DNA of 25,936 nucleotides from a virus. The notes under the pieces are model-generated. The model had not been told where the DNA came from. It saw only the letters and a list, made by a program, of their open reading frames with translations, and did not search any database. The stretch spans positions 1-25,936 of the IMG/VR virus record IMGVR_UViG_3300044608_001352. One strand, written 5' to 3'. Each line of letters starts with the position of its first letter. Within the stretch, counting starts at the first letter, position 1. The position numbers and the translations under genes were made by a program. Positions 2,051 to 16,283 of the stretch are shown in pieces.

Positions 2051-3061
2051 CTAGACTCCGAAAAGCTGGCGAAAAGCCGTGTCGATTGTCGGCATTTCCT
2101 CCGCGAGCGGGTACGGGTAGCAGTCCCCCGGGCGGTCAAACTCCGCCGGGGTGCGAATGTTCGCTAGATAGTCGTTTTCCACTCGGCCACGAATCCACGC
2201 CTCGAAGGCCCGCGCCGCCATTTCGTGCGGTTCGCTCCAATATGGGCGGGTTCGCGTTTTGTCGGCACGGCGGGCGCGGCGGTACATTTCCAGCCCGCGA
2301 AGCGTGACGGCAAGCCTCGCGAGCCCGTCGGTCTGGGTGAAAGCCCGATAGCTGCTCCCGCGGCCTGATTGGTGATGGTCCCAAGCATGAAACCACTCGT
2401 GCGCAAGGCACCCGGCGCCGCGGGTCTTGGTCAAGTTGATCGCGTGGCGGGCGGATTCGTAATGCGCCGACGCCTTGCCATGCCCGCGAGCCCCGAAAGC
2501 AAGCCCCAGCGAGCCCTCGAAGCCGATAGCCTCGGTCGGGATGCCCACGGTCGTAGCAAGGTCGCGGAGCGCGTCGTAGGCTTGGTCTAGTGCCCCCTGC
2601 CGGTTATCCTGCCAATTTCCAAACTCCACCCCATAGGGGCGAAAAGTCGCCATAAAATCCGCCGGGCTGATGGGACGGCCGTTGCGATAATCGGGGCCGC
2701 GGCGTGGCATATTCTGGGGCCGGCGGCAGTGTTCATCCGTGATAGCCTGCGCGGCGAGCGCGGCCCGGTGGAGCCTTTCCAGTTCGGCCGCGGGCGTCGA
2801 TTGAATCCACTCGCGGGCCTCGGTGGGGCTGGGGAAGTATTGCAACGGTACGGGGGGCCGGCTGCTACTGCCGCGGATGATGCGGGCGACATAGCAGCGC
2901 GTACCCTCGGCACCATAACTGCCGTACACCCCGTAGCGTGGCGGGCGGGCGGGGCGTCGGCAGCGCTTGAATCCGGCGGCCTGGTCGTCGATTGCGCGGA
3001 CGGCGGCCAAGTCTTTGCGGGCGCCGCCGATTTTGTTCCCAAAGTCAAGCACGGTTTCCAT
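2051..3061 (-). CDS. LPD1-like domain protein with HExxH zinc-peptidase motif, 336 aa
   Basis: The central part matches what I know of LPD1, the large polyvalent-protein-associated domain 1 of phages and conjugative elements: GVEFGNW near 150, then LGLAFGARG near 190, then INLTKTRGAG, then HEWFHAWDH at residues 221-229. The last motif has the HExxH form of zinc metallopeptidases, with H221 and H225 as ligands and E222 as the catalytic base. A third ligand cannot be assigned by eye. The N-terminal 130 residues are arginine- and proline-rich and not recognised. LPD1 usually sits inside very large polyvalent proteins, while here it is in a stand-alone 336-residue gene. The ATG at 3061 has AAGGACCCTAGACC upstream and starts Met-Glu-Thr. 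A role acting on host or phage proteins early after DNA entry is an inference from the family. Confidence 0.8.
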   Translation of the reverse strand: METVLDFGNKIGGARKDLAAVRAIDDQAAGFKRCRRPARPPRYGVYGSYGAEGTRCYVARIIRGSSSRPPVPLQYFPSPTEAREWIQSTPAAELERLHRAALAAQAITDEHCRRPQNMPRRGPDYRNGRPISPADFMATFRPYGVEFGNWQDNRQGALDQAYDALRDLATTVGIPTEAIGFEGSLGLAFGARGHGKASAHYESARHAINLTKTRGAGCLAHEWFHAWDHHQSGRGSSYRAFTQTDGLARLAVTLRGLEMYRRARRADKTRTRPYWSEPHEMAARAFEAWIRGRVENDYLANIRTPAEFDRPGDCYPYPLAEEMPTIDTAFRQLFGV

Positions 3062-7840: not shown

Positions 7841-8329
7841 ATGGCAAAAGGCCCAGCACCAACGCCGAAGCACATCCTTCAGTTGAGAGGCAGCAAGGAG
7901 GCCAAGTACCGCGAGGAACTTGGGACTCCAGTTTCCGACCTGCCGACGCCCCCCGACTGGATGCGGCCGGCGGCCAAGGCGATGTTCACCCAGGTCTGCG
8001 AATACACGCAGAAAATGGGGACTCTGGCTGAATCGGATACGCAGGTAATCGCCCGCTACTCGATCATCTGGGACAAGTGGCAGGAAGCCGAGCAAAACCT
8101 CGCCAAGTCTGGCGAGTGCTGGCGAGAGATTCTCGCCCCTGACGGCTCTCTGCGGTTCTGCCGGCCCACGAAGTGGCAGTCCCAGAGCAACCACTGCCAC
8201 GAGCAACTCCGGCAGTTGGAAACCGTCCTCGGGCTTACCCCTGCCGACCGAACCCGCCTGGGCTACGGCGCGGTGAAGGTCGTCAACGACCCCGTGGATG
8301 CTCTCTTTGACGACATCGCGGCGGGTTGA
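7841..8329 (+). CDS. terS: terminase small subunit, P27 family, 162 aa
   Basis: The small terminase binds the phage DNA and loads it on the large subunit. The layout matches the P27 family: a short basic N-terminus (MAKGPAPTPKHILQLRGSK), the loop LPTPPDWMRPAAKAMF, a helical core (ESDTQVIARYSIIWDKW), and the C-terminal signature of a helix followed by LGLTPADRTRLG. The normal length of this family is about 120-170 residues. The frame is open far upstream inside the HNH gene, but the ATG at 7841 fits the family start. GTG at 7826, overlapping the HNH stop, is an alternative. The gene overlaps the large-subunit gene by 32 bases. Confidence 0.9.
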   Translation: MAKGPAPTPKHILQLRGSKEAKYREELGTPVSDLPTPPDWMRPAAKAMFTQVCEYTQKMGTLAESDTQVIARYSIIWDKWQEAEQNLAKSGECWREILAPDGSLRFCRPTKWQSQSNHCHEQLRQLETVLGLTPADRTRLGYGAVKVVNDPVDALFDDIAAG

Positions 8330-9827
8330 CATCCGGCAGTTCTGCCGGCTCCTGAGGCACACGGAAGCCCCGTTTACGGGCAAGCCGTTCGTGCCGGTCG
8401 ATTGGCAGGACGACTACTTCGACAAACTGTTCAACACCCGCACCCCGGACGGCAAGCGGCAGTACCGGAAGTCGTTCCTGTTCCTGCCTCGAAAGCAAGG
8501 GAAGACGGCGATGGTGGCGCCGATCGCCCTGTACGAGGGGTTTTTCGGCCAGCACGGCGGCCAGATCATCATCGCCGCCGGCGATCGCGAGCAGGCCCGC
8601 AAACTGTTCGACGCCTGCAAAAACTTCCTCGACTCCTGCCCCGGCCTGGCGAAGCGGTGCAAGGTGTTCAAGAACTCGATCTTCTTCCCCGCGACGAAGA
8701 CGACGATGCAGGTCATTTCGCGGGAGGCCAAGACGAAGCACGGCTTCAATCCGAGCCTCGTCGTCGTGGACGAACTCCACGTCCAGCCCAACCGCGACCT
8801 GATCGACGTCTTGACCAGCGGCATGGGCGCGCGAGCCGAGCCCCTCGTTATCTACATCTCGACGGCCGGGATGGACCGAATCGGTCCCTGCTACGACGAG
8901 TTTCTGCGGGCGCAGAAGGTGCGGGACGGCCTGATCGACGACCCGACCTACCTCCCGTGCCTCTACTACGCCGAGCAGGACGACGACCCGTTCTCTGAGG
9001 AGACGTGGAAGAAGGCCCAGCCGAACTACCTCGTCACCGTGAACAAGGCGTTCATGGAGAACGAGGTCCGCCTGGCGAAGGAGACCGTGGCCGATGAGAT
9101 CAAGTTCCGCACCCTGTACCTGAACCAGTGGGTTTCCAACGGGTCAAATCGTTTCTTCCGCACTGGCCAGTGGGAGGCGTGCGACACCCCGCTCCTGCCG
9201 ACCGAGGGGCGGCTGTGCTACTGCGGCCTGGACTTGTCGAGCACCAGCGACACGACAGCCTTTGCCGCCGTCTGGCCCCATGTGGACGAAGATGGCGTGA
9301 CGACCTACGACGTTCACTGCCGCTTGTTCATCCCCGAGGAGGCTGCCGACCGGGATGAAGCCCCGTATCGTCAGTGGGCCAAGGACGGTTTTGTTACACT
9401 GACTGAAGGAAACACTACCTGCTTCGACACAGTTCGGAACTACGTTCTCTCGTTTTGCGAGAAGAACTCAGTTCGTTCTGTTGCCATTGACCGTTGGAAT
9501 GCAACGCACCTGACGACGCAGTTGATTGCGGAGGGCATCGACGTCAAGCCGTATGGGCAGGGGTACGCCAGCATGAGTGCCCCCACGAAACTGCTGCAAA
9601 CTGCCGTTTTGAGCAAGCGAATCCGGCATGGCGGCAACCCGCCATTGGCTCACCAAGTCAGCAATATGCAGGTCAAACAGGATGACGCCGGGAACATCAA
9701 GCCGACGAAGCAGCACTCGCACTCGACGGCCCGAATCGACGGTGCCGTGGCGATGATTATGTGCTTTGGCCTCTGCGGCGGCGAGGCGCCTCCGCTTACG
9801 GACGAGCCTCAACTACTGGTGTTCTAA
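8298..9827 (+). CDS. terL: terminase large subunit, HK97-type (Terminase_1), 509 aa
   Basis: This is the ATPase and nuclease motor that packages DNA into the prohead. Walker A is LPRKQGKTA at residues 63-71. Walker B is LVVVDELH at 154-161, with E159 as the catalytic glutamate. The C-terminal RNase H-like nuclease has its acidic residues in GLDLSS (D312), AIDRWN (D398) and RIDGAVAM (D481). Length and motif order are normal for the family. The start at 8298 lies within the small-subunit gene, a common arrangement giving coupled translation. The stop at 9825-9827 is followed at once by the portal GTG. No frameshift or missing key residue is seen. Confidence 0.95.
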   Translation: MLSLTTSRRVDIRQFCRLLRHTEAPFTGKPFVPVDWQDDYFDKLFNTRTPDGKRQYRKSFLFLPRKQGKTAMVAPIALYEGFFGQHGGQIIIAAGDREQARKLFDACKNFLDSCPGLAKRCKVFKNSIFFPATKTTMQVISREAKTKHGFNPSLVVVDELHVQPNRDLIDVLTSGMGARAEPLVIYISTAGMDRIGPCYDEFLRAQKVRDGLIDDPTYLPCLYYAEQDDDPFSEETWKKAQPNYLVTVNKAFMENEVRLAKETVADEIKFRTLYLNQWVSNGSNRFFRTGQWEACDTPLLPTEGRLCYCGLDLSSTSDTTAFAAVWPHVDEDGVTTYDVHCRLFIPEEAADRDEAPYRQWAKDGFVTLTEGNTTCFDTVRNYVLSFCEKNSVRSVAIDRWNATHLTTQLIAEGIDVKPYGQGYASMSAPTKLLQTAVLSKRIRHGGNPPLAHQVSNMQVKQDDAGNIKPTKQHSHSTARIDGAVAMIMCFGLCGGEAPPLTDEPQLLVF

Positions 9828-11462
9828 GTGGCCGTAGCCGAAGACGTCGAAATCGCCGATGTGATCGAACTTCGCGGCAATCTGTCGCGAATCTTCGAGG
9901 AAATCGTCAACACGCGGCGAACGACGGCCGGCGTCACGGTCAGCCCCGAGACGGCCCTGGAATGCTCGGCGGTCCTGGCTTGCGTCCGCGTGCTGTCAGA
10001 GTCGATCGCCTCCATGCCGTTCGGCGTCTACCAACGCCTGGCCGGCGGCGGCAAGGAGATTGCCGAAGACCAGCACCTCCACGAAGTCTTGGCGTACCAG
10101 CCCAACTCGTGGATGACGGCGTTTGAGTTCCGCGAACTGATGCAGTCGTGGCTCCTCCTCTGGGGCAACGCCTACGCCCTCATCAAGAACGGCCGCCGCG
10201 GCGCCGTGGACGAACTGATCCCGCTCCACCCGTCTCGGATGGAGGCCAAGAGGCTCTCCAACGGCAAGTTGCGGTACTACTACCGCGAGCCGGCAACCCC
10301 GACGCAGCCCGAGGTCGAGGTTACGGAATACCGTCAGGAGGAGATTTTTCACCTCCGCTGGCTGAGTAGCGACGGCGTCACCGGCTACGTCCCGACGACC
10401 CTGTCTCGCGAGGCCATCGGGCTGGCCCGGGCCACGGAACTGCACTCCTCGTCGTTCTTCGGCAACGGCGCGAAGGCAGGGACGTATATCGAGGTCGATC
10501 AGCCCCACAAGCCGGAAGTTCTCCAGCGATTCCGTTTGCAGTGGGACGAGGCCCACCAGGGGCCAGACAAGGCATACAAGACCGTCGTCATGCCTTACGG
10601 CTTCAAGAAGAAGGACGACCCGGTCCGCAACGACACGGCCCAACTTATCGAAACCCGCCGCTATCAGGTCGAAGAGGTGCTGCGGTGCTTTCGCGTGCCG
10701 CCTCACATGGTCGGCGACCTGTCAAACGTGCGGTATTCGACGGCCGAGCAGTCCAGCATCGACTTCATCACCTTCTCGCTCATCCCCTGGTGCCGGCGCT
10801 GGGAGATGGCTTGCCGCCGCGACCTCGTGGTGGATGACCGGAAGTATTTCTGCCAGTTCGACACGAACGCCCTGCTGGCCGGCGACTACCAAGCCCGAGC
10901 CCAGTTCCTCCGCGAGGCGTTCCAGAACGGCGCCATCGACGTGGACGAGTATCGGGCCGCGATTGGGTACAACCCGCTCCCCGACGACGCCGGCAAGAAG
11001 CGTTTCATTCAGGTCAATATGCAACTTCTCTCGGCGTTCACGCCGGAGAACCCCACCGGCAAGACGGCGACGGAGCCGAAGCCATCGGCCGGAGTCGCCG
11101 TCGGCGGCTCCGCGCCCGAGGGGCAGCCTGACGTACAGGTCGGCGCCGCCAGCACGCAGCCACGCGATGCGTCGGATGCCGAGGTTGTCTTCAGGACGCA
11201 CCTTCGTCGCCTCGCTGGGGTCGAGGCTGACGGTATTCTGGAGCGTAGGAACCGCCCGGAGAAACTTTCCGCCTGGTTCGACGCCATGCAGAAGCGGCTT
11301 TGCGACGAGTTGCGCGACGCCGCCAAGGCTACCGGGCGAGATATTAACGAGTTTTCGGTGGCGTGGGTCGCGCGGTCGCGCGAACTCCTGCTGGAGTGCC
11401 ACCGCAGTGGTCAGAAATACGAAACAGCAACCCAAGGATGGTGCGACAAGCACCAGTTTTAG
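9828..11462 (+). CDS. HK97-family portal protein, 544 aa
   Basis: The portal forms the dodecameric DNA gate at one vertex of the head. Family signatures are SPETALECSAVLACVRVLSESIASMPFGVY (in outline, residues 39-67), the region with WGNAYALI, and the later VPPHMVGD-x-STAEQSSIDFI segment. The first 390 residues have the expected family length. About 150 further residues, first proline- and glycine-rich and then helical and charged, form a C-terminal extension that may be internal scaffold or barrel. The start is GTG at 9828, directly after the terminase stop, and lacks a clear ribosome binding site, so termination-reinitiation is likely. Confidence 0.93.
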   Translation: MAVAEDVEIADVIELRGNLSRIFEEIVNTRRTTAGVTVSPETALECSAVLACVRVLSESIASMPFGVYQRLAGGGKEIAEDQHLHEVLAYQPNSWMTAFEFRELMQSWLLLWGNAYALIKNGRRGAVDELIPLHPSRMEAKRLSNGKLRYYYREPATPTQPEVEVTEYRQEEIFHLRWLSSDGVTGYVPTTLSREAIGLARATELHSSSFFGNGAKAGTYIEVDQPHKPEVLQRFRLQWDEAHQGPDKAYKTVVMPYGFKKKDDPVRNDTAQLIETRRYQVEEVLRCFRVPPHMVGDLSNVRYSTAEQSSIDFITFSLIPWCRRWEMACRRDLVVDDRKYFCQFDTNALLAGDYQARAQFLREAFQNGAIDVDEYRAAIGYNPLPDDAGKKRFIQVNMQLLSAFTPENPTGKTATEPKPSAGVAVGGSAPEGQPDVQVGAASTQPRDASDAEVVFRTHLRRLAGVEADGILERRNRPEKLSAWFDAMQKRLCDELRDAAKATGRDINEFSVAWVARSRELLLECHRSGQKYETATQGWCDKHQF

Positions 11463-11464
11463 CC

Positions 11465-11932
11465 ATGCCGGCCGCTTCCCAGACCGTCATCGACGCCCTT
11501 CAGGCGTCCGTCCGCCTCCACCTGCTCGCAATCGAGCACTACCAGTCGCTTTCCGAGCACCTGGGCCGCTGGGGGTACGAGAAACTCGCCCACAAGCACG
11601 CCGAGGATGTGACCGAGGAGCGCGATCACCTGAAAAAGTGTCTGTCGCGGCTCGAATACTACGACGTTCAGCCCACTTACGAGCACGACAAGCCCGAATG
11701 GCCGCGGCATGACTACGAGGGAATCCTCGCGGCGTGCCTGTCGCTTGAGTCGGCGGCTGCCGAAGTGGAGCGGGCCAACATTTTGACGGCCCGCAGCGTT
11801 GGCGACGAGCTTTCTGCCCTTATTTTCGCCTCCATGCTGGCTGGCAGCGAGGACGCGGTTCGTGAAATCGAGGCTGCCCAGAAGGTGATTGAGCAGATTG
11901 GCCTCGACAACTACCTCTCGATGCAGGTCTGA
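11465..11932 (+). CDS. bacterioferritin-family four-helix protein with altered di-iron site, 155 aa
   Basis: The protein lines up with E. coli bacterioferritin (158 residues) by eye without gaps at an offset of one residue. Shared landmarks are the LLAIEHY helix (LVAINQY), E52-x2-H55 (E51 and H54), the LSLES glutamate E95 (E94) and the C-terminal signature IGLDNYL (MGLQNYL). Bacterioferritins oxidise and store iron in 24-mer shells. Here three of six di-iron ligands are changed (E18 to H19, E127 to S128, H130 to A131), and the haem methionine M52 is R53, so normal ferroxidase activity and haem binding are doubtful. The gene sits between portal and protease, two bases after the portal stop and one base before the protease ATG, fully inside the head operon. 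Whether it enters the virion is unknown. Confidence 0.85.
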   Translation: MPAASQTVIDALQASVRLHLLAIEHYQSLSEHLGRWGYEKLAHKHAEDVTEERDHLKKCLSRLEYYDVQPTYEHDKPEWPRHDYEGILAACLSLESAAAEVERANILTARSVGDELSALIFASMLAGSEDAVREIEAAQKVIEQIGLDNYLSMQV

Positions 11933-11933
11933 C

Positions 11934-13520
11934 ATGGAAATTGAACGTCGAATCACGCTCTCTGACGCCACGATCGAGTATCGCGACGGCGAAAACGGCG
12001 AAAAGCGGCCTGTAATTGCGGGCTACGCGGCCGTCTTCAACGCCGAAAGTCGCGTACTGAACGGGTTCGTGGAGCGAATCCACCCAAACGCCTTCGACGA
12101 GGTGCTCTCGACGAACCCCGACGTGATCGGCGTGTTCAATCACGACCGGAATCAGCTCCTGGGGCGGACCTCGAACGGCACACTGAAACTCACCGCAGAC
12201 GGCTACGGCCTGCGCTACGAACTCTCCCCCAACGAAAAGACCTCGGTCGGCAAAGATGTGGTCGAGTGGGTGAAAGACCGGACGGTCGTCGGGTCCAGTT
12301 TCGCCTTCGCGATCAAGAAAGATGGCACTGGGGACCGCTGGCACCGCGACGAACGTGGGATGCAGTGCCGCGAGGTGCGGCAGGTTGCCTTGCTGGAGGA
12401 CGTGGGCCCGGTCGTTCGGCCGGCCTACGCCGCGTCGAGCGTCGTCGTGAGCCGCCGGGCGCTGGAAACGGCCCTCGGCGAGAACTACCGCCCCTCCCAG
12501 ACGATGGCGAACGCAGCGAAGCGTGGCCTGAAGTTGGCCGAGCGGAGCGACGAGGTCGATCAGTCGCTCGTTGCGCTCGCCGACCGGATCGCCAACCGCG
12601 AAGTCGTGAGCGTCGAGGAGTGCGAATACCTCGCCGCGACCTACAAGCGGTGCCTGGAGGCAAAAGCGAAGGGCTGGAATGGCACTCCGGCGTGGATCGA
12701 GTGGCAACTGGCCGGCGGAGACTCCGGTTTGCGGTGGGTCCAGCGACGAGCGCAGCCCGAGCCCGAGAATCCCCCTGCTGCGGCAGCGCCGCAGCCCGAG
12801 AATCGTGAAGAATCGGCTGTCTCGCTCGTCCCGACGGCCGGCATGGCCGCCGCCGCCAAGCGTGGGCTCAAGTTGCACGAGGACGGCCGGTCTGGCGACG
12901 GCCTGAAGCCCGAGACGGTCGCCCGGGCGAAGAAAATCGCCGCCCGCGAGGGGCTGACCGAAGACCATGTCCGCGAAATGCGGGCCTGGTTCCGGCGTCA
13001 CAAGGTCGATAAGAGGCCCGGCTGGAACAAAGCCGGCGAAGAGACGCCCGGCTACACCGCCTGGATGCTGTGGGGCGGCGATCCTGCATGGCGGTGGAGC
13101 GAAGCCAAGGTCGCCCAGATGGGCGAGAAGCGCGACGTTGACGAAGAGGAGTATTCCGGCGCTCTTTCGGAGCGCGACCTCGCCACCGCGGAGTGCTACG
13201 ACGGCATCGCCGAGGAACTGGGCCCGTGGGCGCCGGCCGAGGCGCATTACGTTGCCGACAATCCGTTCGCGAAGGACGGCATCGCGTGCCGCAACTGCGT
13301 CTTCTTCGAGGGCGAAGGGGCGTGCTACGTCGTGTCAGGCGAGATCGCGCAGGATGCGGTGTGCAAGTTGTGGATCATCCCCGAGGGCAGAATGTCAGAG
13401 CAGAAAACCGAAGAAAAGCCGCAGAAGCGCGACGAGGCGGCTGACGCCATGGCGAAGGCTGCGGCCCTCAAGGCAACTTTGCTTGCGACTCGGTTGCACG
13501 GCGCCACTGCGGCACCGTAG
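11934..13520 (+). CDS. HK97-type prohead protease with long C-terminal extension, 528 aa
   Basis: Residues 1-175 form the usual prohead protease: IAGYAAVFN, FNHD with H70, GSSFAF with S121/S122, and LLEDVGPVVRPAY. These fit the U35-type catalytic arrangement, which trims capsid scaffold. Such proteins are commonly 150-250 residues, so about 350 extra residues follow here. They hold two related modules (191-272 and 304-396), each starting AAKRGLKL and ending in a GGD-x-W unit (LAGGDSGLRW and LWGGDPAWRW), joined by a proline/glutamate linker. A four-cysteine motif follows: C452-x2-C455-x8-C464-x12-C477, then KLW. The spacing loosely recalls small iron-sulphur proteins, but zinc is equally possible. 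The ATG at 11934 is preferred, one base after the previous stop. Confidence 0.88.
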   Translation: MEIERRITLSDATIEYRDGENGEKRPVIAGYAAVFNAESRVLNGFVERIHPNAFDEVLSTNPDVIGVFNHDRNQLLGRTSNGTLKLTADGYGLRYELSPNEKTSVGKDVVEWVKDRTVVGSSFAFAIKKDGTGDRWHRDERGMQCREVRQVALLEDVGPVVRPAYAASSVVVSRRALETALGENYRPSQTMANAAKRGLKLAERSDEVDQSLVALADRIANREVVSVEECEYLAATYKRCLEAKAKGWNGTPAWIEWQLAGGDSGLRWVQRRAQPEPENPPAAAAPQPENREESAVSLVPTAGMAAAAKRGLKLHEDGRSGDGLKPETVARAKKIAAREGLTEDHVREMRAWFRRHKVDKRPGWNKAGEETPGYTAWMLWGGDPAWRWSEAKVAQMGEKRDVDEEEYSGALSERDLATAECYDGIAEELGPWAPAEAHYVADNPFAKDGIACRNCVFFEGEGACYVVSGEIAQDAVCKLWIIPEGRMSEQKTEEKPQKRDEAADAMAKAAALKATLLATRLHGATAAP

Positions 13521-13542
13521 GCTACCGATATAGACATCAGTG

Positions 13543-13564
13543 CTTCGCAGCGGACGCTGCGAAG
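13543..13564 (+). other. hairpin between protease and capsid genes
   Basis: CTTCGCAGC (13543-13551) and GCTGCGAAG (13556-13564) are exact inverted copies around GGAC, in the 145-base gap before the capsid gene. This is the longest gap in the rightward operon. No T run follows. It may protect or process the capsid message. I see no promoter in the gap. Confidence 0.55.
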
Positions 13565-13665
13565 GACGGTGCGAGCGACAGCGGTCGCGGCGCGCCAGCG
13601 AGACAAACTCGCCGGCCGCCGCCTTTGACTGCGTTGGCCGGCTCAACCAGGAGCAGGTCAACAAA

Positions 13666-15012
13666 ATGCCCTCGAACCTCAAGCGTCTTCAGGATCGCGC
13701 CGCGGCCGTCGCCGCCCAACTCACCGAACTCCTCTCCATCGAGGATCGCTCGGCGGAGCAGACCGCCGACCTCGCCCGGCTCTCCAAGGAAGCCGACGAC
13801 CTGAAGGCGGGCCTCGACTTCGAGGCGAGGATCGCCGCCAAGGAAGCCGAACTCCGTTCGGTGATCGAGAAGGCGGCCCCCGCTCCGGCGCCGGCCCCCG
13901 AGGCCGCTCCGAAGACCGAGGAGAAGAAGCCCGAGATTCGCTCCCTGGGCGTCCATCACACCCAACTGACCGCGTTCAACGACGGCCCCGAGGCCGTTGA
14001 GAGCGCCTACCGCTGCGGCCGCTGGCTGCGGGCGGCGGTGTTCAAGAGCGCCGACGACATTCGGTGGTGCAAGGACCACGGCGTCGAGAGCCGGGCTCTC
14101 GGCGAGAACGCCAATTCCACTGGCGGCGCCCTCGTTCCCGAGGAGTTTGCCAATCGCGTGATCCGGCTCGTGGAGAACTACGGCACCTTCGCCGCGTCGA
14201 GCGTCGAGAAGGTGACGATGACCCGCGACACGATGATCGTCCCGAAGCGCGTCGGCGGCACCACGGCTTACTTCGTCGGTGAGGGCACTGCCGTCACCGA
14301 AAGCGAGCCGACCTACGCCAACGTGCAGTTGGTCGCCAAGAAGTTGGCCGTCGGCACCCGCATGTCGAGCGAGGTGGTCGAGGACGCCCTGATTTCGCTG
14401 GCCGACGCTGTGGCTACCGAGTTCGCCACGTCGCTGGCCTACAAGACCGACCTTTGCGGCTGGGTCGGCGACGGCACCAGCCAGTACGGCGGCATCAACG
14501 GCGTCGTGAACAAGATCAACGACGGCACGCACGGCGCGGCCGTCCTGACCTCCGGTGCGGGCGCGACCGGGTTTGAGTCGCTCACCGTGACCGACTTCGT
14601 GAAGATGATCGGCCGGCTGCCGCTCTACGCCCGCCAGGGTGCCGAGTGGTACATCTCGCCGGCCGGCTTCGCGGCCTCGATGGCCCGCCTCCGCTACGCG
14701 GCCGGTGGCAACACCGTCGAGCAGATCGGCGGCGGCGTGAACGAGACGTTCCTTGGCTTCAAGGTCAACCTCGTCCATGTGATGGATTCGACCCTGGGGG
14801 CTGACTCCGGCAAGATCAAGGTGCTGTTCGGCAACCTCGGTCTGTCCAGCATCTACGCCCGTCGCCGGGACTTCTCGGTGCGGATGTACGACCAGGTCTA
14901 CGCCACCACCGACCAGCTTCTGCTTCAGGGCACGATGCGGTTCGACATCGTCCACCACAGCCTCGGCGACAACTCGCTCGCCGGTCCTGTGATCGCCCTC
15001 AAGACCGCCTGA
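13666..15012 (+). CDS. HK97-fold major capsid protein with N-terminal scaffold domain, 448 aa
   Basis: Residues 1-65 are a charged heptad-like coiled coil (LKRLQDRAAAVAAQLTELLS), as in the HK97 delta domain that serves as internal scaffold and is removed by the protease. An alanine/proline linker follows at about 70-82. From about residue 145 the HK97 fold begins with ENANSTGGALVPEEF (GGALVPEEF at 153-161), followed by FVGEGTAVTESEPTY, a typical capsid segment, and later QYGGINGVVN. The last 20 residues (TMRFDIVHHSLG) fit the family. The frame is open from 13540, but the ATG at 13666 is chosen because AGGAG and CAGG lie upstream and the coiled coil starts there. It is probably the most abundant structural protein. 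Confidence 0.93.
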   Translation: MPSNLKRLQDRAAAVAAQLTELLSIEDRSAEQTADLARLSKEADDLKAGLDFEARIAAKEAELRSVIEKAAPAPAPAPEAAPKTEEKKPEIRSLGVHHTQLTAFNDGPEAVESAYRCGRWLRAAVFKSADDIRWCKDHGVESRALGENANSTGGALVPEEFANRVIRLVENYGTFAASSVEKVTMTRDTMIVPKRVGGTTAYFVGEGTAVTESEPTYANVQLVAKKLAVGTRMSSEVVEDALISLADAVATEFATSLAYKTDLCGWVGDGTSQYGGINGVVNKINDGTHGAAVLTSGAGATGFESLTVTDFVKMIGRLPLYARQGAEWYISPAGFAASMARLRYAAGGNTVEQIGGGVNETFLGFKVNLVHVMDSTLGADSGKIKVLFGNLGLSSIYARRRDFSVRMYDQVYATTDQLLLQGTMRFDIVHHSLGDNSLAGPVIALKTA

Positions 15013-15554: not shown

Positions 15555-16283
15555 GTGCTGCTGCGTATTGGAGATGTAGAGGCGGAAATCAAAGTCGCGG
15601 CGGTGATGAGCACCCCGCGACTCGGGTTCACTGACAACTTCTTCTGTGTCTCGCAGGCTCTCGCCCCGAACGGCATCGCGCCTACCAAGGTGACTGGCGC
15701 CTTCTGGGGGCAGTGCCTTCAGCGGTCAATGGAGACGGTCGTTGAAGACCACGACGTCATCCTGACGATCGACTACGACACCATCTTCAATGCCCGCACC
15801 GTCAAGGCTCTCTTGGCCTTGATGATGCACAGCGGCGTCGATGCGATCGCCCCGCTCCAAACGAAGCGGGAAAGCAACGCCGTCATGCTGGCCCTGCATG
15901 GATCAACCCAGGACGAGAAGACGACCGTCGATCGCTCGTGGTTTGAGAAGAAGGTGCAGCGTGCGGAAACGGCCCACTTCGGCCTTACGTTCCTCCGCAC
16001 GGAAGCCCTGCGGAAGATGCCCAAGCCGTGGTTCCTCGCCTCCGCCAACGAGCAGGGCGAGTTCACTGGGGGGCATATTGACGAGGACATTTACTTCTGG
16101 AAGCAGTGGGCGAAGGTCGGCAACACGCTCGGCATCGCCACAAACATCAGCGTCGGCCATGCCGAACTGATGATTACCTGGCCCAGCATCGAGAATGCGT
16201 CCGGCAAGGTTCAGCAGCACACCTCCGACTACTGGGTCAACGGCCAGAAGGCGCCTGAATCGGCATGGGGGGTGGTGCCATGA
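15555..16283 (+). CDS. GT-A-type glycosyltransferase-like protein in the head operon, 242 aa
   Basis: The sequence shows a GT-A fold outline: VAAVMSTPRLGFTDNFF, then VILTIDYDTIF with a DxD motif (D73-Y-D75, expected to bind the metal and sugar nucleotide), then HFGLTFLRTEAL, then GGHIDEDIYFWKQW near the place of the acceptor-side acidic residue. The closing GHAEL segment may carry a metal-binding histidine. The start is GTG at 15555, six bases after a clear AAGGAG. The gene lies between the decoration protein and connector genes, and its stop overlaps the next gene (ATGA). Sugar transfer to virion proteins is the natural guess; glycosylated virions are known in some mycobacteriophages. Substrate and acceptor are unknown. 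Confidence 0.8.
   Translation: MLLRIGDVEAEIKVAAVMSTPRLGFTDNFFCVSQALAPNGIAPTKVTGAFWGQCLQRSMETVVEDHDVILTIDYDTIFNARTVKALLALMMHSGVDAIAPLQTKRESNAVMLALHGSTQDEKTTVDRSWFEKKVQRAETAHFGLTFLRTEALRKMPKPWFLASANEQGEFTGGHIDEDIYFWKQWAKVGNTLGIATNISVGHAELMITWPSIENASGKVQQHTSDYWVNGQKAPESAWGVVP

Follow-up and report, generated by a model that had tools for sequence, protein, structure and literature searches.

A phage-specific clade of bacterioferritin (Bfr) homologues was identified in which, judged by alignment, half of the iron-oxidising site is erased and the other half rebuilt, and phages have therefore probably turned the iron-storage cage to another metal-handling use. The clade was traced from a 155-residue open reading frame in the analysed window (25,936 nucleotides, IMG/VR record IMGVR_UViG_3300044608_001352, positions 1 to 25,936), and comparison with related phages indicates that this ORF behaves as a cassette, both exchangeable and dispensable, in the slot between the portal and prohead protease genes. 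Phage iron handling has so far been discussed mostly via host genes and iron-binding tails. The present clade is phage-specific, large and conserved, and in it the active site of a textbook iron-storage protein is consistently rewritten across unrelated phages; it makes late-infection iron and redox management by phages testable and would offer a ferroxidase centre naturally reduced to one site.

The gene occupies positions 11465-11932 (+ strand; ATG at 11465, TGA at 11930-11932) and was annotated as a phage bacterioferritin-like gene (bfr) from profile searches, phmmer against the PDB and structure prediction. Upstream on the same strand are the genes for the terminase large subunit (TerL, 8298-9827, homology search) and the portal, which forms the upstream border of the slot (9828-11462, Pfam PF04860, 1e-92). 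Downstream, also on the + strand, are those for the S78 prohead serine protease, the other border (11934-13520, PF04586, 3e-38), and an HK97-type major capsid protein (13540-15012, PF05065, 6e-31). The portal stop (TAG, 11460-11462) is followed by two bases before the bfr ATG, and one base separates the bfr stop from the protease ATG at 11934, in agreement with the sequence-only reading, in which the gene was locked between portal and protease. The promoter and terminator of its own that a classical moron carries were lacking at the window gene, as gaps of only two and one bases leave no intergenic room for them. Elsewhere in the window, a gene between the capsid and connector genes (15555-16283) weakly resembles family 2 glycosyltransferases (Glyco_trans_2_3, 1.9e-4; PHROG 1574) and recurs in related phages with and without bfr. 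An ORF upstream of the head operon (2051-3061, - strand) contains the large polyvalent protein-associated domains LPD1 and LPD5.

The window protein scored 38.6 bits against Pfam Ferritin (E = 1.3e-9, cut-off 24.5) and 47.7 bits against NCBIfam bfr (TIGR00754, E = 1.6e-12), the latter short of the curated equivalog cut-off of 125.55 bits. Top phmmer matches in the PDB were exclusively Bfr (E = 3e-12), and a profile of the phage family matched PDB Bfr over positions 4-154 (E = 1e-21). Residues 8-155 were aligned without gaps to residues 7-154 of E. coli Bfr at a constant offset of +1, so E. coli numbering is window numbering minus 1. The AF2 model (pLDDT 96.7) had five helices including helix E, and the PDB fold matches listed were all Bfr or bacterial ferritin of the same fold, with TM mostly 0.92-0.95; identity to solved Bfrs was 19-30%. 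A member of the large-phage group (~40% identity) was likewise modelled as Bfr. Structures were monomer predictions, and site geometry was taken from the ungapped alignment and a superposition of about 1 Å; in these models the full Bfr subunit fold is kept, including helix E of the four-fold pore. The earlier proposal of a gapless, full-length Bfr homologue was therefore upheld by Pfam, NCBIfam, PDB phmmer, the family profile and the alignment: the protein falls with the bacterioferritins, with homology well past chance, and the monomer prediction gives the Bfr fold. An unrelated four-helix family was ruled out by profile, fold and full-length alignment. Shared with cellular Bfr (TIGR00754; E. 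coli Bfr, 1bcf) are the length, the full-length alignment, the four-helix bundle with helix E, Glu51, His54 and the Asn148-Tyr-Leu motif.

For the family survey, IMG/VR was scanned with the window protein, an alignment, the portal and a helix D-E profile, and 112 distinct phage-type sequences were obtained from IMG/VR uncultured phage contigs and a few MAG contigs. Several loci were the same contigs under two identifiers, and counts were made on distinct sequences to avoid doubling. The phage sequences all came from uncultured contigs; the window protein had no match in 50,697 cultured phage records, and a large-phage member used as query against cultured phage records gave weak matches to cellular-type Bfr only. 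A first scan of cellular genome contigs returned none and a second returned the few MAG contigs. The phage family formed one clade apart from cellular Bfr (SH-aLRT 100; 100/100 in a second tree).

In E. coli Bfr, Glu18 and His54 are terminal ligands on Fe1, Glu94 and His130 are terminal on Fe2, and Glu51 and Glu127 are bridging (PMC4771812). Among 27 cellular sequences, Glu18, Glu51, His54 and Glu94 were present in all (27/27), Glu127 in 22/27 and His130 in 24/27. The set of six was incomplete in the window, where these positions, in the order 18, 51, 54, 94, 127 and 130, read H, E, H, E, S and A (all codons + strand). At H19 (codon 11519-11521; Glu18) the terminal Fe1 ligand has become His in 112/112 phage sequences, against Glu in 27/27 cellular ones. 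The bridging ligand E52 (11618-11620; Glu51) and the terminal Fe1 ligand H55 (11627-11629; His54) are kept in 112/112. S128 (11846-11848; Glu127, bridging) is Ser in 112/112, and A131 (11855-11857; His130, terminal on Fe2) is replaced by Gly, Ser or Ala in 112/112. E95 (11747-11749; Glu94, terminal on Fe2) is variable across the phage family (Val in 49, Glu in 48, Asp in 15). The haem ligand Met52, Met in 25/27 cellular sequences, is lost: the window has R53 (11621-11623), the phages have Arg, His, Gln or others, and no Met was found among the five commonest residues in the 112 sequences. The changes E18 to His, E127 to Ser, H130 to Ala and M52 to Arg, with E51, H54 and E94 kept, had been called from the window alone and were reproduced in the alignment. 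With H19, E52, H55 and S128 in 112/112, the altered site is a fixed trait of the whole phage family and not a local oddity. The ligand pattern was also present in 14 sequences found via the portal alone and in 36 found via the helix D-E pattern, and because these recoveries agree, the invariance is no artefact of the search pattern.

Cellular Bfr further differs from the phage family at Met31, which is His in the phages, at Asn34, and in lacking the new invariant R81-H82 and E102. Most phage members have Arg at the B-pore position Asn34, which may change or block the entry of iron. Conservation of H32, R81, H82 and D83 could signal a candidate second metal cluster; H32 and H82 fall within some search patterns, and portal-only recovery has them in 13/14 and 14/14. 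The truncated phage sequence L095 has Gln in place of His at 32.

By alignment, every member of the phage family has lost His130 and the Glu127 bridge, and with them the Fe2 half of the ferroxidase centre; on the simplest reading the Fe1 half would be rebuilt as His19-Glu52-His55, a possible one-metal site. The site might not be the same in all groups, since the large-phage group has Val in place of Glu94. Some metal is probably still bound, because the three ligand positions are co-invariant, which argues against an iron-free fold. A metal-free structural or binding protein, whose H19, E52 and H55 would be conserved because they serve packing, would be compatible with the loss of half of the ferroxidase ligands and of the haem Met, but was judged improbable: the Glu18 to His change places a new metal-binding residue beside two kept ligands in 112/112, and His at 18 would not be expected to be fixed by function loss alone. 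It is very improbable that the gene is an ordinary auxiliary metabolic gene for a normal ferroxidase and iron-storage Bfr; viral bfr genes have been reported (PMC10904782, PMC11780533), but the present protein lacks the haem Met and three of the six ferroxidase ligands, and its score is far below the NCBIfam bfr equivalog cut-off.

In every carrier of group G1, bfr was flanked by portal and protease, and in most of them the junctions measured about -4 to +8 bases. The survey of portal-protease gaps in related phages gave 48 distinct portal sequences with bfr and 17 without, the latter with portal joined directly to protease; presence and absence among close relatives at one locus, 48 vs 17, is the pattern of an accessory gene. 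At least three gains or losses of bfr are required on the portal tree. One phage without the gene (L117) is nested among carriers and has a clean ATG-to-ATG junction, its portal end ...CTCTAATCATG reading straight into the protease. In the carriers L032 and L149 the bfr ATG comes after this same portal stop, and the bfr stop in turn precedes the protease ATG. Compared with these carriers, the L117 portal is 89-90% and the capsid 90% identical, and L117 looks like a clean loss of bfr. The sequence CATGCCA is common to both bfr junctions in L032 and L149, and this repeat is a possible deletion route for the gene.

The slot was also occupied by different alleles in otherwise similar phages. Portal and bfr protein identities were 98% and 51% for L042/L107, 92% and 50% for L032/L149, and 95% and 56% for L029/L105. 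Nucleotide identity in swap pairs was about 0.55-0.6 within the ORF and about 0.9 on either flank; for L042/L107 the start codon marked a fall from about 0.92 to about 0.57, with recovery at the ORF end. The swapped tract runs from the start codon to a point in the final tens of bases of the ORF, and as read from these nucleotide comparisons, almost exactly one ORF is exchanged when divergent bfr alleles replace one another. Purifying selection acts on bfr (median pairwise dN/dS 0.16, 16 pairs), with a value similar to those for portal, protease and capsid (0.12-0.13). Empty and swapped slots indicate that an optional gene can enter or leave a tightly packed head operon with the operon undisturbed.

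Outside G1, the gene was found in other settings. In group G2b (contigs up to about 238 kb) bfr is downstream of a PHROG 7595 gene, and at many loci a ClpP-like head protease is encoded a few kb further downstream; in group G2a a primase-polymerase gene and a helicase gene precede it. At L201, L207 and L213 no head genes of this type were seen, and an AAA ATPase gene is near bfr in L201. As the family occurs in these settings, it is unlikely to depend functionally on one particular portal or protease. The PHROG 7595 gene, with the motif FVARCM...YPDSGQRVAICLGQ, is directly upstream of bfr at most large-phage loci (L053, 5343-5876, and relatives).

A virion or scaffold component, with a cage or subunit that forms part of the phage head or travels inside it, was among the options in the sequence-only reading, and the strict placement between portal and protease with few-base gaps at every G1 carrier locus would suit such a head-related role. 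However, related phages retain portal, protease and capsid without bfr, alleles are swapped without a matching portal change, some family members are encoded close to replication genes or belong to jumbo phages whose proteases differ, and no C-terminal targeting extension is present; a head part is therefore a weak reading and was given only a small chance. The encapsulin analogy drawn with it was not supported either. Encapsulin cargo ferritins are similar in that a ferritin-like protein is encoded beside an HK97-fold shell gene, whereas here there is a real phage capsid operon with portal and protease, and the gene is dispensable. No encapsulin-type C-terminal targeting peptide was found in G1, where most proteins end 0-2 residues (maximum 7) past the Bfr core, and the window locus has TerL, portal, S78 protease and phage capsid in place of an encapsulin shell. 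Encapsulin-type cargo was rejected on the absent targeting extension and the true phage head genes, and the bfr-less relatives, allele swaps and loci away from head genes also count against the analogy.

A late-expressed, optional, cage-type metal-handling protein of bacterioferritin descent, with its metal, 24-mer assembly and function presumed from sequence, was given about an even chance. Held more tentatively, and well short of even, is the narrower proposal that the cage was converted to a one-metal 2-His-1-carboxylate protein, a chemistry not known from the ferritin family, and is passed between phages as a cassette cut exactly to the ORF, both within the late head operon and among jumbo phages. 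Under the broader, even-chance reading the protein would assemble into a Bfr-like cage and bind one metal ion per subunit, most likely Fe(II), at the 2-His-1-carboxylate site, and one-metal binding would replace the two-iron ferroxidase chemistry. Its site of action would be the cytoplasm in late infection, where it would bind iron or handle its redox state; Fenton damage might thereby be limited or the host iron pool shifted. The head-operon position would then reflect high late expression via translational coupling, not a head-part role.

Alternatively, the phage protein might co-assemble with host Bfr into mixed 24-mers, with less ferroxidase activity or a host iron store opened late. The full-length Bfr fold, helix E and the NYL motif are kept, co-expression is known to yield mixed Bfr/Ftn and hetero-Bfr cages (PMC12120770), 9bts and 9iig were among the fold matches, and divergent allele swaps in one slot would fit matching to different hosts. 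Haem-side and helix-end positions, however, differ throughout (Met31 to His, Met52 to Arg/His, Asn34 to Arg), and co-assembly was considered rather unlikely. Shewanella hetero-Bfr (SoBfr1/2, 9iig) is comparable in its Bfr fold and in that one cage tolerates subunits with a degraded ferroxidase centre or without the haem Met; it differs in being encoded by paired chromosomal genes that keep Glu18, whereas here a single phage gene has His18.

The MAG sequences include L077 and relatives, on planctomycete contigs with chromosomal-type neighbours (sulfatase, GntR/LacI-type regulator, ankyrin protein). At a strict cut-off the gene was present in 1/392 genomes of the L077 phylum and 2/72 of its family. 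The chromosomal-type L077 copy (7884-8465) has a signal-peptide-like N-terminal extension, MLKMLGLGLAICASSIAISA, which suggests that export is possible. Three Bfrs from the same phylum (L168, L169 and L170) have Ser for Glu127, two of them also Ser for His130, and all keep Glu18; they are possible intermediates, their link to the phage clade resting on the ligand columns. A planctomycete origin was considered and is not claimed: the three Ser127 Bfrs join the phage clade (98/94), but this grouping is lost in a tree built without the ligand columns.

Virus-encoded Bfr has been described as an auxiliary gene in a Bathyarchaeia virus (PMC10904782) and in Flandersviridae (PMC11780533). Compared by description only, these are similar in that a Bfr is encoded by a virus of microbes; the Bathyarchaeia virus Bfr is reported to be under purifying selection and differs in being described as Thermoproteota-derived and oxidising Fe2+ (PMC10904782). 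Dps and Mn-catalase of Gratiaviridae (PMC8008677) and Lactobacillus phages (PMC6669764), proposed to protect from oxidative damage, are also ferritin-like superfamily proteins in phages, but belong to other families (Semele Dps model, 12% identity, TM 0.77). The Bfr peptides reported from purified virions of phage AXL1 belong to a host protein (PMC9206674). In a literature search of partial coverage, which leaves novelty unproven, no report of the altered-site Bfr clade or of the portal-protease slot was found.

Several further features were recorded at related loci. An intein-like, in-frame insertion of ~350 residues is present at the terminase ATPase motif (GK...THNS) in L038 (595-3156), L100 (534-3113) and L148 (1384-3966). 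In L010 and L105, an extra ORF between the terminase small and large subunit genes resembles a free-standing homing-endonuclease-type protein. The prohead protease of L033, L115 and L029 has an in-frame extra stretch between two conserved parts (~750 residues in total). The BFVD models A0A6J7XDU5, A0A6J7WIS1 and A0A6J7WPK9, from uncultured phages and named "prohead protease", gave ferritin-fold matches, and on these models may be protease-ferritin fusions.
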